NCBI GenBank assembly: GCA_040752355.1 | Contig: JBFMHE010000002.1 | Coordinates: 62,001-126,000 of the forward strand | Source: Nitrospirota bacterium | GTDB lineage: Bacteria > Nitrospirota > Thermodesulfovibrionia > Thermodesulfovibrionales > Dissulfurispiraceae | DNA length: 64,000 nucleotides | Reading direction: 5' to 3' | Shown here: positions 43,442 to 50,582 of the stretch, in pieces | How the letters are laid out: each line of letters opens with the position of its first letter | How positions within the stretch are numbered: position 1 is the stretch's first letter | The notes under the pieces: model-generated | The model's database searches: none | Seen by the model: the letters and a program-made list of their open reading frames with translations, nothing else | Told to the model about the DNA's origin: nothing | Made by a program: the position numbers and the translations under genes

Positions 43442-43495
43442 ATGGATCCCCGGTATGAACCCCCAGGCATGTACCCCCGGGACCACAAGCAATGA
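43442..43495 (+). CDS. 17-residue proline-rich leader ORF before a diguanylate cyclase
   Basis: ATG 43442 (GAGG upstream) opens MDPRYEPPGMYPRDHKQ; its TGA overlaps the next ATG as ATGA. The cyclase gene itself has only a weak ribosome site, so coupling through this leader is plausible. It could equally be chance in a 112-base gap. Confidence 0.3.
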   Translation: MDPRYEPPGMYPRDHKQ

Positions 43496-45870
43496 GAAGA
43501 AAGATCGTCATAGGTCTCACCGTAGCCCTCTGGATCTTTGTTCTGTTCTCTTTTCTCTTTTCGATCGAAGCGGGAGGCCCGTCCGGCAGCGGGAGCCGGC
43601 TCGTCTCCATCGGCACCCTTCTGAGCTTCGTGCTCTTCTTCTGGGTCTTCTCCCTCTTCAACCGCGAGGTCCTCGAGCGCAGACGTGCCGAGGAGGCGCT
43701 GAGGAAGAGCGAGCGGCGGTTGTGGCAGATGGTCGAGAACCTCCCCGTCGGCGCCTTCTACCGGGAGGACGATTCGGTCTTCTTCAACAGGGCGGTGGAG
43801 GAGCTTACCGGCTACAAACGCGCCGAGATGACGACGCTCGACCAGTGGTTCGCCACGATGTACGGCGCCGACGCTCCCGTTGTCCGCAGCTATTACGAGG
43901 AGGACAGGCGAAAGGGCTTTCCCGCCACACGGACCGTGCCCCTTACCAGGAAGGACGGCAGCATCCGCTACATCGAGTTCGCCGGGTATGCCTTCGATAA
44001 GGGTGAGGTCTGGGTGCTCCACGATATCACCGAGCGCAAGCGTGTAGAGGAGGAGCTCGCCCGGCTGAGCCGGAAGTACGAGCTGATCCTCGAGTCGGCA
44101 GGCGAGGGCATCTACGGGCTGGACAGAAGCGGCAGACACACCATCGTCAACCGCGCTGCCGTCGCCATGCTCGGCTACCCGGCCGAAGAGGTCATCGGCA
44201 GGAAGAGCCATCCTCTCTGGCATCATACCAGGGCCGACGGCACGCCCTACCCGGAAGAGGAGTGCAGGATCTATGCAACGATACGCGACGGCGTCATGAA
44301 GACGGTGGATGACGAGGTGTTCTGGCGAAAGGACGGAACGAGTTTCCCGGTCGAGTACACCGCGACGCCGATCGTCAGGGATGGCGTCATCGACGGAGTG
44401 GTGGTCACCTTCAGGGATATTACCGAGCGGAAGCAGATCGAAGGCGAGCTGATAGAGTCGGAGGCGAATCTCCGCACCATTCTCGACAGCGTCTATGATG
44501 CGATCTTCATCCATGATATGGACGGGAATATCATCGATGTGAACAGGAAAATGCTCGAGCTGTACGGGGTGGAGAGGGACGAGGCGACCCGGCTCTCGAT
44601 ACGGGAGGACTATTCCGCTCCCGACAACCCCCTCGACGAGCTCCCCGGGATATGGCGCCGGGTCAAAGGAGGGGAGACGCAGCTTTTCGAATGGAGGGCC
44701 CGGAGGCCCCATGACGGGTCGGTCTTCACCGTCGAGGTCTTCCTCCGCACGATAACGCTCAGGGCGAGGGAGGTCATCCTCGCCAGTGTGCGCGACATCA
44801 GCGAGCGCAAACGCGCGGAGGAGCGGCTCGCCAAGTACGTCAACGAGCTCGAGCAGCGCAACAGGGAGATCGAGCTCCTCGCGGAAATGAACAGCCTGCT
44901 CCAGGCGAGTCTCACTGCCGGCGAGATCTCGCTTATCATTGCCCGGTCGATACGGCAGCTCTTTTCCGGGGAGTCGGGGATCATCTACCTGCTCGATCGG
45001 GCGAGGAGTACGCTCGAGTCCATCGCCGTATGGGGCGATATCAAGGCCGACGGGTATTTCCTCTCTCCCCGGGAGTGCTGGGCCCTGCGGCTCGGGAGGA
45101 CCTATCTCTCGGGCAGCGGCAGGTCCGAGATGCTCTGTCCCCATACCGCATCCCTCCCGGACACCGCGTACCTGTGCGTGCCGATGATCGCCCAGGGTGA
45201 GATACTCGGCATGCTCTTCCTTCAATTCAACGCCGCTGCCCTCGGCCCCGGGACAGCCAATCCCGAGGAGGAGAGAGGGCCGAGGCTGAGAAGCAAGCAG
45301 CGGCTGGCAGAGGCGGCGGCCGAGAGCATCGCGCTCTCGCTGGCGAACTTCAGGCTCCGCGAGACGCTCTACGCCCAATCCATACGCGACCCGCTCACCG
45401 GGCTCTTCAACCGCCGCTACCTGGATGAGCTGCTCGAGAAGGAGCTCCACCGGGTGCTCCGCCGGGAGCTTCCGCTCAGTGTGATCCTGCTCGATATCGA
45501 TCATTTCAAGCTCTTCAACGATACCTTCGGCCACGAGGCGGGAGATCTGCTGCTGCGCGAGCTCGGCGCGTTCCTGGCGCGCCACATCCGTGCGGAAGAC
45601 TTCGCCTGCCGCTACGGCGGCGAGGAGTTCGTGCTCGTCCTGCCCGAAACCGCACTCGAGGACGCCCGCCAGCGTGCTGAAGAGCTGCGGAGAGCGATCA
45701 AGGAGCTGACGGTCCGGTACCGGGAGAGGATACTCGGACCGGTAACCGTTTCGATGGGAGTGGCGGTCTTTCCGAAGCACGGCGAACGGAGCGACGAGCT
45801 GCTGCGGGCGTCGGATGCCGCCCTCTACCGCGCGAAAGCGGAGGGGCGGGACAGGGTGATCGTCTACTGA
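43492..45870 (+). CDS. PAS-GAF-GGDEF diguanylate cyclase
   Basis: A 792-residue protein. Two membrane spans at about 5-25 and 38-58; three PAS domains (about 72-190, 195-320, 325-445); a coiled coil; a GAF-like domain about 470-600 containing CPHTASLPD; and a C-terminal GGDEF domain with active GGEEF and an RAED inhibitory site five residues before it, so product feedback is expected. It makes c-di-GMP. A 108-base stretch (45316-45423) is identical to part of the cyclase at 48912-50582. Confidence 0.93.
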   Translation: MRRKIVIGLTVALWIFVLFSFLFSIEAGGPSGSGSRLVSIGTLLSFVLFFWVFSLFNREVLERRRAEEALRKSERRLWQMVENLPVGAFYREDDSVFFNRAVEELTGYKRAEMTTLDQWFATMYGADAPVVRSYYEEDRRKGFPATRTVPLTRKDGSIRYIEFAGYAFDKGEVWVLHDITERKRVEEELARLSRKYELILESAGEGIYGLDRSGRHTIVNRAAVAMLGYPAEEVIGRKSHPLWHHTRADGTPYPEEECRIYATIRDGVMKTVDDEVFWRKDGTSFPVEYTATPIVRDGVIDGVVVTFRDITERKQIEGELIESEANLRTILDSVYDAIFIHDMDGNIIDVNRKMLELYGVERDEATRLSIREDYSAPDNPLDELPGIWRRVKGGETQLFEWRARRPHDGSVFTVEVFLRTITLRAREVILASVRDISERKRAEERLAKYVNELEQRNREIELLAEMNSLLQASLTAGEISLIIARSIRQLFSGESGIIYLLDRARSTLESIAVWGDIKADGYFLSPRECWALRLGRTYLSGSGRSEMLCPHTASLPDTAYLCVPMIAQGEILGMLFLQFNAAALGPGTANPEEERGPRLRSKQRLAEAAAESIALSLANFRLRETLYAQSIRDPLTGLFNRRYLDELLEKELHRVLRRELPLSVILLDIDHFKLFNDTFGHEAGDLLLRELGAFLARHIRAEDFACRYGGEEFVLVLPETALEDARQRAEELRRAIKELTVRYRERILGPVTVSMGVAVFPKHGERSDELLRASDAALYRAKAEGRDRVIVY

Positions 45871-45880
45871 CGCCGCCCGC

Positions 45881-46366
45881 CTATCCGATCACCCATACGG
45901 CACAGCTGCGCTTCGCATGGAGGATGCTGCTCGAGGTGCTGCCGAAGACGAGCTCCTCCTTCTTCGATATCCCGCGCCGTCCTATGATCACGGTGCAGCA
46001 GTCGAGCTCCTGCTGCGCCTCGAGGATGCAGCGGGCCACAACCGGGCAGTGCCTGATATCGACCCTGGTCGCGATCTTTCTCTCGTCGAAGCCGGCCTGC
46101 ACCAGGAGTTCCTTATAGCGACCGAGGACCCCCGCCATCGCAGCACGCCTCTGCTCGATCCAGGTGCGGTGCTCTTCTGCCCCGGCAAAGTAGTCGCCGG
46201 GAGGTTCGGGGACCACCGTGAGCAGGGTGATCGTGAACCCCGGAAGTCCTCCCAGGAAGTCCGCAATGTAGAGGACCGCCCGTTCGGCGTTTTCCGAGGC
46301 ATCGACAGCCAGGAGGAGATGCCTGTCCTTGAGGCGGCACGCTGCCGCAGGGTCTGGGGCGCTCAT
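45881..46366 (-). CDS. Universal stress protein (UspA family)
   Basis: A 161-residue single Usp domain: LLLAVDASENAERAVLYIADF at the start (shown in part), then IIGRRGISKKEELVFGSTSSSILH, matching the ATP-binding G-x2-G-x9-G-S/T pattern with changes. It overlaps the end of the kinase-like gene by four bases (ATGA), so the two are coupled. Confidence 0.9.
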   Translation of the reverse strand: MSAPDPAAACRLKDRHLLLAVDASENAERAVLYIADFLGGLPGFTITLLTVVPEPPGDYFAGAEEHRTWIEQRRAAMAGVLGRYKELLVQAGFDERKIATRVDIRHCPVVARCILEAQQELDCCTVIIGRRGISKKEELVFGSTSSSILHAKRSCAVWVIG

Positions 46367-47422: not shown

Positions 47423-47552
47423 CACATCCTTAACGGCGCTATCGAGCGCCGTGCTTCATCAACGCCCGCGGGGCATCGATCTGTTGACAGTACGTACCTT
47501 TCGTGTTAAGGGATAGTATGAAGGTAACCGCATTCTGTAAGGAGGTGTCGTC

Positions 47553-48146
47553 ATGACCGACCTGCGATGGATACGCGACTTCGAGGCCGCGCTGAGAAAG
47601 GCGCGGGATACGGGCAGGCCCGTATACCACGATTTCTGGTTTGAGGGTTGAACGGGCTGCGATGCGATGAATACGGGTCCGTATTCGAGCGAAGCGGTGC
47701 AGCAGCACCTGGAGGAGCGTTTCGTCACGCTCAAGACGCAGGTCTCCTGGGATAAGCCCTCGGCCCTTATGAAGCACTTCGTCATCACCTGGACCCCGAC
47801 CCTGCTGATTCACGACAAGGCAGGCCGGGTGCACCACGGTATGGTGGGATTCGTCCCCGAGGATGATCTCCTGGCCCATCTCGCCTTCGGCCACGCGAAG
47901 GTCGTGTTCGATGCCGGGCATCTGGACCGCGCTATCGAGGAGCTTAGAGCCGTGATCGACCTCCATCCCTCTTCCGCTGTAACGCCGGAAGCGGTCTTTT
48001 ATCTCGGCATTGCCGAGTACAAGCGCTTCAACGATGCCACGGCGCTGCGGAGGGCTTATGATATGCTCACCGCGCGGTATCCGGAGAGCGAATGGGCGCG
48101 GCGCGCGCGACCGTACGAACATATCCCGTCCTACGCCGAAATCTAA
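47553..48146 (+). CDS. Thioredoxin-fold/TPR protein with an in-frame UGA (probable selenocysteine)
   Basis: Read through one TGA (47649-47651), this is a 197-residue protein. ATG 47553 has AAGGAGGTG 7 nt upstream; the later in-frame ATG 47667 has no ribosome site and would drop the active site. Residues 1-115 are thioredoxin-like: RPVYHDFWFEG, then U33-T34-G35-C36, then DAM; later TWTPTLLIHDKAG with the cis-Pro and VGFVPEDDLL. In the family as I remember it the site is Cys-x-Gly-Cys, so UGA replaces the first Cys. Residues 116-197 are TPR-like (FDAGHLDRAIEELRAVI, EAVFYLGIAEYKRF). A hairpin follows the UGA. A nonsense mutation is the alternative, but the frame after UGA is intact. TTGACA lies at 47484-47489 with a weak -10 box. 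Confidence 0.82.
47669..47686 (+). promoter_or_regulatory. Candidate bacterial SECIS hairpin
   Basis: GAATAC (47669-47674) pairs with GTATTC (47681-47686) around GGGTCC; the inner GG/CC could also pair. It begins 17 nt after the UGA and its loop starts with G, as expected for SelB-binding bSECIS elements. Outer GCTGC/GCAGC may extend the stem. Confidence 0.65.
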
Positions 48147-48170: not shown

Positions 48171-48208
48171 GCCCGCAGCAGGGTGCGTCATTGAGGCCTG
48201 CTGCGGGC
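48171..48208 (+). terminator. Hairpin terminator after the thioredoxin-fold gene
   Basis: GCCCGCAGCAGG pairs with CCTGCTGCGGGC around a 14-base loop, followed by TTCTGTTCTG, a weak U-rich run. It lies 25 bases past the stop. Confidence 0.65.
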
Positions 48209-48240
48209 TTCTGTTCTGCCTTTCCCTCCGCGCTCGTTTG

Positions 48241-48332: not shown

Positions 48333-48725
48333 ATGAAGACAGACCGGATTCTCAAACACCTGAGAGAGATTCGGAAGGCGAAGGGGATCAGGCAGGAGTT
48401 TATTGCCGGTGAGCTCGGGATCGACCGGACGAGCTACTCCAAGAAGGAGCTCGGCAGAGTTCCCCTGACCCTCGACGAGCTCGTCACGATCGTACGGCTG
48501 CTCGACGTCCGGTGGGAGGATATCTTTTCCGGAGATAACCCGAAGATCCCGGCCATACGGCAGCGCCTCGAAACCATAAAGACGTTTCCCCGTTCCGCGC
48601 AGATCGATTTTACGGACTACGAAGAGCTGCTGAAGGGAGCTGCGCGGGATATCGACTATCTCCTCTCCCTCGTCGACCTCCTCTCCTCCCGGGGGGCCGT
48701 CCGGCCGGACGGTTCAGGAAACTGA
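48333..48725 (+). CDS. XRE-family HTH regulator
   Basis: A 130-residue protein. Residues 6-65 form a Cro/C1-type HTH (LREIRKAKGIRQEFIAGELG, DRTSYSKKELGRVPLTLDELVTI shown in parts, VRWEDIF). The rest is a helical tail without a known domain. It may be a phage-type or autonomous repressor; no divergent target gene is next to it. It precedes a diguanylate cyclase but is separated from it by a hairpin and a promoter. Confidence 0.88.
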   Translation: MKTDRILKHLREIRKAKGIRQEFIAGELGIDRTSYSKKELGRVPLTLDELVTIVRLLDVRWEDIFSGDNPKIPAIRQRLETIKTFPRSAQIDFTDYEELLKGAARDIDYLLSLVDLLSSRGAVRPDGSGN

Positions 48726-48911: not shown

Positions 48912-50582
48912 ATGAAGAGGGTTATCTCGATAGGGATCGGCATGGCCGCGCTCATCATCGTCCTGTCGACGGTCTTTTCCTATATCAACACACTGCACCT
49001 CATCGACAATACAAAGCTCCGGACACTGGCGTTCACCGTTGTCGACAGGCTTGAGCTGCTCCTCACCAATATCATGAATGCCGAAGCGGCACGGCAGGAG
49101 TACATCATCACCAAAGATCCCCGCCACCTGGCGCTCTTCCAGAACGCCACGTCGGCTGCGGCGCGGAACATGGAGGAGCTGAAGAGGCTCGAACGGTCGG
49201 CGCCGGCCCTGCGCGCGCATCGCACGGAGCTCGAAGCGCTCCTGGTGAAGCGGCTCGCCAATCTGAGCGAATCCATCGAGCACCAGAGGAAGGAGGGGTT
49301 CGATATCGCGAAGCAGCGTGCGCTGACGATGGAAGGAGACACGATCTATGACCGCATCGTTGCGGTCGTCAACGAGATAAAGCAGGAAGAGAAGCGGGTG
49401 ATCACGATGCTCGGAGGAGAGCAGCGGAGCATCGCGAAACGGCTCGTTGCCACGCTGCTTTCGGGAACGTTCCTGAGCATACTGATCTTCTCCTGGATCG
49501 TCTCCCTGCTGAGCCGCGAGATAAGCGAGCGCCGGAAGGCCGAGGACCGCCTCTCCCGGTCGGTGGATGAGCTCGAGGGGAGGGGGAGGGAGATCAGCTT
49601 CCTGAGCGAGATGGGAAGACTGCTGCAGGCATGCACGTCCGTCGCGGAGGTGAAAGAGGTGATCGCCCGCTCCATGAGCGAGCTCTTCTACCGGGAATCG
49701 GGAACCGTCTACTTCATGAATGCCGAGGGCGAGCTCCTGGAATCGGTCTTCTCGTGGGGCGGCGAAACCGGGAGCGAGCCGGCCTTCAGCCCGGACCAGT
49801 GCTGGGCGCTCAGGCTCGGAAGAGTGTACACGGTAGGCGCGGACCGGGCGATGATGCTCTGTCCTCACATTACGCAGGTCCGGAAAGGCGTCTACCTCTG
49901 CGTGCCGATGATCGCCCAGGGAGAGGCGCTCGGACTGCTCTTCCTCTTCATCAAAGAGGAGCTGTTCGCACGCCAGGAGGCGGACCGCAAACGGCTGCTG
50001 GAGTACAAGCAGCGTCTCGCCGAGACAGCGGCCGAGAGCATCGCGCTCTCGCTGGCGAACTTCAGGCTCCGCGAGACGCTCTACGCCCAATCCATACGCG
50101 ACCCGCTCACCGGGCTCTTCAACCGCCGCTACCTGAAGGAGATGCTCGACCGGGAAGTCTACCGGACCGCGCGCAGGGAGCAGGAGCTCTGCGTCGTCAT
50201 GATCGACATCGATCATTTCAAACTCTTCAACGACCGGTTCGGCCACGATGCCGGCGACCTGCTGCTCCGGGAGCTCGGCGCGTTCCTCCAGGGCCGCATC
50301 AGGGAGAGCGATTTCGCCTGCCGCTACGGGGGAGAAGAGTTCGTCGTCGTGCTGCCCGAGACCCCGCTCGAGCGGGCCGGCGAGCGGGCGGAGGAGCTGC
50401 GGAGAGAGGTGAAGCAGCTCACCGTACGCTATCACGGGGAGCTGCTGGGGCCTGTCACGCTCTCGATGGGCGTGGCGAGCTTTCCGCAGCACGGACCCGC
50501 TGCAGATGACCTCCTGAAGGCGGCTGACGCAGCCCTCTACCGCGCCAAAGAGGAGGGGAGGGACCGGGTAGTGACAGCGTGA
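48912..50582 (+). CDS. CHASE3-GAF-GGDEF diguanylate cyclase
   Basis: A 556-residue protein. First span about 5-25, a helical periplasmic CHASE3-like domain (EYIITKDPRHLALFQNA), second span about 183-203, coiled coil, GAF-like domain with CPHITQVRKGVYLCVPMIAQG (in parts) and a GGDEF domain with active GGEEF and RESD I-site. It makes c-di-GMP with product inhibition. It closely matches the C-terminal half of the cyclase at 43492-45870, including 108 identical bases (50028-50135). Confidence 0.92.
   Translation: MKRVISIGIGMAALIIVLSTVFSYINTLHLIDNTKLRTLAFTVVDRLELLLTNIMNAEAARQEYIITKDPRHLALFQNATSAAARNMEELKRLERSAPALRAHRTELEALLVKRLANLSESIEHQRKEGFDIAKQRALTMEGDTIYDRIVAVVNEIKQEEKRVITMLGGEQRSIAKRLVATLLSGTFLSILIFSWIVSLLSREISERRKAEDRLSRSVDELEGRGREISFLSEMGRLLQACTSVAEVKEVIARSMSELFYRESGTVYFMNAEGELLESVFSWGGETGSEPAFSPDQCWALRLGRVYTVGADRAMMLCPHITQVRKGVYLCVPMIAQGEALGLLFLFIKEELFARQEADRKRLLEYKQRLAETAAESIALSLANFRLRETLYAQSIRDPLTGLFNRRYLKEMLDREVYRTARREQELCVVMIDIDHFKLFNDRFGHDAGDLLLRELGAFLQGRIRESDFACRYGGEEFVVVLPETPLERAGERAEELRREVKQLTVRYHGELLGPVTLSMGVASFPQHGPAADDLLKAADAALYRAKEEGRDRVVTA

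Follow-up and report, generated by a model that had tools for sequence, protein, structure and literature searches.

A probable UGA-encoded selenoprotein combining a DsbD-gamma-like thioredoxin domain with a TPR-like tail in a Nitrospirota bacterium

The window analysed here, a stretch of 64,000 nucleotides from a Nitrospirota bacterium, carries on its forward strand a reading frame crossed by a single in-frame TGA which, when translated through (47553-48146), specifies 197 residues with one U, at position 33, in the context FEGUTGCDAM. The initial annotation of this DNA had proposed that one TGA at codon 33 joins the two halves of a thioredoxin-like protein and that U-T-G-C occupies the thioredoxin active-site position, and both propositions hold in the sequence and its read-through translation. 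The features of the locus are the following:

47539..47547, plus strand: AAGGAGGTG, ribosome-binding site for the ATG at 47553, seen in the sequence; orthologs are arranged alike.
47553..48146, plus strand: candidate selenoprotein gene for a 197-residue thioredoxin + TPR protein with Sec33 (UGA) and stop codon TAA, based on read-through translation, a TGA kept in 75/80 loci and equal selection on both sides.
47553..47885, plus strand: thioredoxin-like domain, DsbD-gamma-like, residues 1-111, with the cis-Pro motif W80-T81-P82 (PF13098 and PF13899; AlphaFold2; VIA-align).
47649..47651, plus strand: in-frame TGA, putative Sec33, the first residue of the UxGC motif (translation; TAA/TAG in 0/80 loci).
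47667..47669, plus strand: downstream ATG, the wrong start that an annotator would take (159-residue ORF in the ORF list), lacking a ribosome-binding site.
47669..47686, plus strand: bacterial SECIS hairpin GAATACG-GGTC-CGTATTC, 18 nt (bSECIS rule, synonymous conservation, covariation).
47886..48143, plus strand: C-terminal TPR-like helical domain, residues about 112-197 (PF13432/PF13174 below cut-off, TPR models in homologs, predicted helices).

Mechanical ORF calling yields only the 159-residue part that begins at ATG 47667, in frame and six codons past the TGA, and so loses the first 38 residues together with the active site, as had been anticipated. The assignment of the ribosome-binding site to the upstream ATG is likewise upheld: AAGGAGGTG precedes 47553, with 7 nt from the end of AGGAGG to the ATG, and no such site precedes 47667. 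An open frame of 164 codons after the stop is expected by chance in about 2% of cases; the frame alone is therefore weak evidence, and it is the comparative evidence that lifts the case above chance. A consensus scan found neither a promoter-like site upstream nor a terminator-like site downstream of the gene, and a long inverted repeat located soon after the stop codon (CCCGCAGCAGG/CCTGCTGCGGG, 48171-48210) received no score in the terminator scan; the Rfam scan of the window gave no matches at gathering thresholds. On either side of the region lies a GGDEF diguanylate cyclase equipped with PAS or CHASE3/GAF sensors (43492-45870 and 48912-50582). A gene for a universal stress protein (45881-46366) and one for an HTH regulator (48333-48725) are also nearby; no gene neighbour recurs across lineages.

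Homologs were gathered with an alignment that omits the active site. Among 80 homologous loci from named genomes of six or more phyla (Nitrospirota, Thermodesulfobacteriota, Myxococcota, Planctomycetota, Acidobacteriota and Armatimonadota were represented), codon 33 is TGA in 75, TGC in four and TGT in one, and never TAA or TAG, and the TGA persists in loci with as little as about 31% identity. All 80 have Cys at position 36. When the Cys homologues are aligned, their Cys falls at codon 33. L148, at 478 residues and 30% identity, counts among the five Cys loci but is no more than marginally related. A set of 60 relatives contains eight full-length orthologs beyond the one in the host genome, and each has exactly one TGA; a search of 230 genomes of the same class retrieved 31 full-length orthologs, the window counted, again with a single TGA apiece. 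Just one full-length match in that class is free of a stop: L032 (G000 C10 29113-29664), a distantly related paralog from the host genome itself, which is a Cys protein with CPVC, 26% identity and the same thioredoxin + TPR layout. A search of plasmids returned one distant thioredoxin and nothing else. For the 27 codons that precede the TGA the dN/dS-like ratio amounts to 0.277, and for codons 47-110 to 0.280, values that are rough since the synonymous sites of the nine close Nitrospirota-type sequences compared are near saturation; they indicate that the part upstream of the "stop" is constrained as much as the part after it.

The class search also brought up a second, shorter group of thioredoxin-only proteins (about 120-150 residues, e.g. 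G218:C61:87164-87496, G195:C85:871-1191 and G197:C1:327469-327789) with one in-frame TGA each, which may be a separate selenoprotein family, and in which some of the TGAs could be terminal stops. One copy of the long form (L077, JAJRAP010000048.1) lies on a 3.4-kb contig binned as the archaeon Candidatus Methanoperedens; it groups with the Nitrospirota copies and has a bacterial SECIS, and its assignment to an archaeon is probably a binning error.

The stem of the hairpin starts exactly 17 nt after the TGA, and its GGTC loop 24 nt after it. According to the published bSECIS rule, the loop has 3-9 nt, lies 16-37 nt after the UGA and has a G in its first two positions, the stem has 4-16 bp, and the minimum free energy is at or below -7.5 kcal/mol (PMC13188914). 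The hairpin of the window agrees with this rule in all respects (GGTC loop, 7-8 bp, 24 nt, -12.9 kcal/mol for a 47-nt stretch), as do the hairpins of 72 of the 75 TGA loci, compared to 27% of the control positions taken from these genes. Across 70 sequences, pairing of the stem is intact in 91.6% of cells and two-sided changes number 40, against 13 expected by shuffling; when the partner is slid by one to three columns, pairing falls to 18-66%. In the 25 closest sequences the same codon is used at a frequency of 0.98 at codons 40-44, which lie under the hairpin, versus 0.49 at 40 other scored positions, and no scored position outside the hairpin codons reaches 90%. The 18-nt motif occurs once in the window (0.00 expected in shuffles), its minus-strand match being the same palindromic site, and it is absent from the viral contigs searched. 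The earlier suggestion that the hairpin 17 nt past the TGA is a bSECIS is thus corroborated by the fit to the published rule and by the covariation of the stem.

The hairpin is not uniform throughout the family. Five acidobacterial or related loci (L110, L121, L126, L136 and L142) have another one, of the CTCGGC-TGGAT-GCCGAG type, nearer the TGA and in another register, with the loop 16-17 nt after the TGA, which suggests that the SECIS changed register inside one orthologous family. In the Geobacter-related L137-L139 and L144-L146 the stem has moved by one base and the GGTC loop is retained.

Members of the family in which the codon is Cys provide a natural control. Among the 30 orthologs read from Geobacteraceae, 18 have TGA and 12 have Cys. 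All six canonical stem pairs are kept in 16 of the 18 TGA copies, the other two using a shifted GGTC hairpin, whereas the six-pair stem is kept in none of the 12 Cys copies (Fisher p = 1e-6, for copies that are not phylogenetically independent). In the tree, 14 Cys rows form a clade with support of 100/99 nested inside the Sec forms; the remaining Cys row, L109, has a long branch and is of unsure placement. The nested position of the clade points to a single replacement of Sec by Cys, followed by decay of the hairpin. Hence, the initial view that Sec here replaces a conserved Cys stands for the thioredoxin superfamily as a whole and is reversed inside this family, whose members usually have Sec and whose main Cys clade lies among Sec forms.

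The search for selA, selB, selC and selD, which had been put forward as a check, found all of them in the host genome (3.57 Mb, 44 contigs, 100% complete): a tRNA-Sec with the anticodon TCA (UCA) at 68 bits, SelB at 356 bits, SelA at 614 bits, and two copies of selD with one in-frame TGA each (G000 C1 32143-33066, L039, and C7 140007-140921, L040). SelA was found in 201 of the 230 genomes of the class and is so common there that its co-occurrence with the TGA form adds little. No selA was found in six MAGs whose copy is of the TGA form, three of which do have a tRNA-Sec; in the other three (G112, G207 and G217, fragmented MAGs that are 96, 91 and 95% complete) neither was found, and these absences are probably due to missing contigs or assembly gaps. 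The genomes with Cys copies that were examined (L109, L116, L120 and L131) retain SelA. Taken together, the machinery, the Cys homologues and the bSECIS hairpin support the original reading of the locus as encoding a thioredoxin-fold selenoprotein.

The N-terminal half of the protein matches Thioredoxin_2 (PF13098) above the cut-off (32.6 bits versus 27), as well as Thioredoxin_7 (PF13899), and PF00085 weakly. PF13098 is found in all 60 homologs and TPR models in many of them, with PF13432 and PF13174 (TPR) falling just under the cut-off in the window protein itself. An AlphaFold2 model built with the 60 homologs (pLDDT 96.8) has a thioredoxin fold from residue 1 to about 111 and helices at 103-190. 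In both sequence and fold (VIA-align Z 13.3), DsbD-gamma is the nearest match of the thioredoxin half, and the helical half resembles, by model comparison, the TPR proteins BamD, YbgF and YfgM. No hydrophobic N-terminal segment, signal peptide or membrane segment is found in the 197 residues, from which we infer that the protein is cytosolic.

These data lead us to regard the product, with high confidence, as a cytosolic selenoprotein in which UGA-33 is decoded via SelB and the hairpin, and which would act as a UxGC thiol-disulfide (or peroxide or sulfenate) reductase with a client-binding TPR tail. Sequence evidence could hardly make the insertion of Sec at UGA-33 more certain. As for function, the 197-residue protein most likely serves in the cytosol as a thiol-disulfide reductase and would hold clients by its TPR part, the redox activity and the client-binding role both being read from fold and motif. 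In the mechanism we propose, SelB and Sec-tRNA(UCA) would decode UGA-33, steered by the hairpin just downstream, to give the full 197 residues. To judge by the fold and the motif, Sec33 of the DsbD-gamma-like domain may then attack a disulfide or an oxidised thiol, Cys36 may resolve the mixed selenosulfide, cis-Pro82 may bind the backbone of the substrate, and client proteins may dock on the short TPR tail, which would aim the reductase at particular partners.

It could be argued that the TGA is a nonsense mutation or a sequencing error, i.e. that a Cys codon turned into TGA in a recent pseudogene or by a wrong base call, given that one base change converts TGC or TGT into TGA and that the host assembly is in 44 contigs. 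However, a mutation or error of this kind would not recur in 75 of 80 loci, some with as little as about 31% identity, without a single TAA or TAG, nor would it be accompanied by the same purifying selection on either side and by a hairpin that is conserved alongside the TGA and lost without it; conservation has already refuted this reading, and we assign it a negligible probability. An equally negligible one attaches to the decoding of UGA as a standard amino acid without SelB, for instance as Trp by a near-cognate tRNA, the support for which is purely formal: only Cys codons ever replace the TGA, codon 33 is the catalytic Cys position of the thioredoxin fold, the bSECIS geometry is in place, and the host encodes tRNA-Sec(UCA), SelA, SelB and SelD. 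The UGA might also be mainly a selenium-dependent switch, the functional output under selenium shortage being a shortened protein or one re-initiated at ATG 47667. This would be in line with the in-frame ATG six codons past the TGA and with the competition between termination and Sec insertion at the UGA of every selenoprotein gene. We nonetheless consider it very improbable, as the 159-residue form would be devoid of the first strand, of Sec33 and of Cys36, no ribosome site lies ahead of 47667, and selection is as strong before the TGA as after it.

A more serious alternative concerns function rather than decoding. The protein could be a chaperedoxin like CnoX/YbbN, mainly a holdase that passes oxidised clients to chaperonins and not a general reductase. 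The top two full-length matches in Foldseek are indeed YbbN/CnoX structures, from E. coli and Salmonella, and these proteins share with ours the order of an N-terminal thioredoxin and a C-terminal TPR part; CnoX of Caulobacter has a catalytic thioredoxin domain joined to a TPR domain and works both as a reductase and as a holdase (PMC6282202). On the other hand, the YbbN match has an rmsd of 11-12 A and a TM-score of 0.40, which means that the domains are arranged differently, the thioredoxin half is nearer to DsbD-gamma, and our protein has 197 residues as opposed to about 285. Moreover, CnoX/YbbN proteins have C/SxxC, a TPR part roughly twice as long and no selenocysteine, and a search with Pfam and NCBIfam models gave no match of the window protein to a YbbN-type model. 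We therefore view a predominantly chaperedoxin role as rather unlikely, and prefer the reductase with a client-binding tail.

With respect to known selenoprotein families, the 2026 catalogue of 119 prokaryotic families lists no thioredoxin-TPR family and has a "Thiol:disulfide interchange protein" with PF13098, UxxC and the representative WP_011366075.1 (PMC13188914). A thiol:disulfide interchange selenoprotein was reported in a 2006 survey from Syntrophus aciditrophicus, Geobacter metallireducens and G. uraniireducens (PMC1794560), and was filed in a 2008 survey as Trx-like 2, cd02953 (PMC2398784). Compared by description, these entries share with the window protein the domain PF13098, the UxxC motif (here UTGC) and the affinity to DsbD-gamma, but they have few members and make no mention of TPR. 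We take cd02953 to be the DsbD-gamma domain, and we presume that one genome with a TGA ortholog, G284, is that of G. uraniireducens Rf4. The matching labels and this ortholog make it likely that the window protein belongs to the catalogued family. If so, the family was described only sketchily about twenty years ago, and its TPR half, its broad distribution and the Sec-to-Cys replacement appear to be unreported. It is possible, although we doubt it, that the protein represents a separate, unlisted family: a compact, chaperedoxin-like Sec protein of anaerobic phyla, with Sec as the ancestral state, a frozen SECIS, and Cys in one Geomonas-type lineage.

Other relatives are more readily told apart. 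The gamma domain of DsbD, the best match of the thioredoxin half in sequence and fold, is a periplasmic Cys domain within a membrane protein, whereas the window protein lacks a signal or membrane segment and has a TPR part attached. The GSU3446-type selenoprotein likewise combines a UxxC thioredoxin fold with a bSECIS, but is a plain one-domain thioredoxin, while the window protein matches PF00085 only weakly. A periplasmic Cys thioredoxin in G242 was rejected as a member of the same family. None of the NCBIfam selenoprotein models reaches its cut-off (TsoB, NF045694, scores 31.4 versus 805 bits, and the others fall far below), and since no NCBIfam model covers the family, its orthologs would be annotated without the first 38 residues and the active site.

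The annotation of the more than 90 loci gathered in this work could be corrected accordingly. The family also constitutes a natural experiment, in which the Sec copies keep the hairpin down to synonymous sites, while it is gone from the Cys copies of organisms that still decode Sec. The pair of Sec and Cys orthologs in Geobacteraceae would offer a way to measure what selenium contributes to a thioredoxin predicted to bind client proteins.
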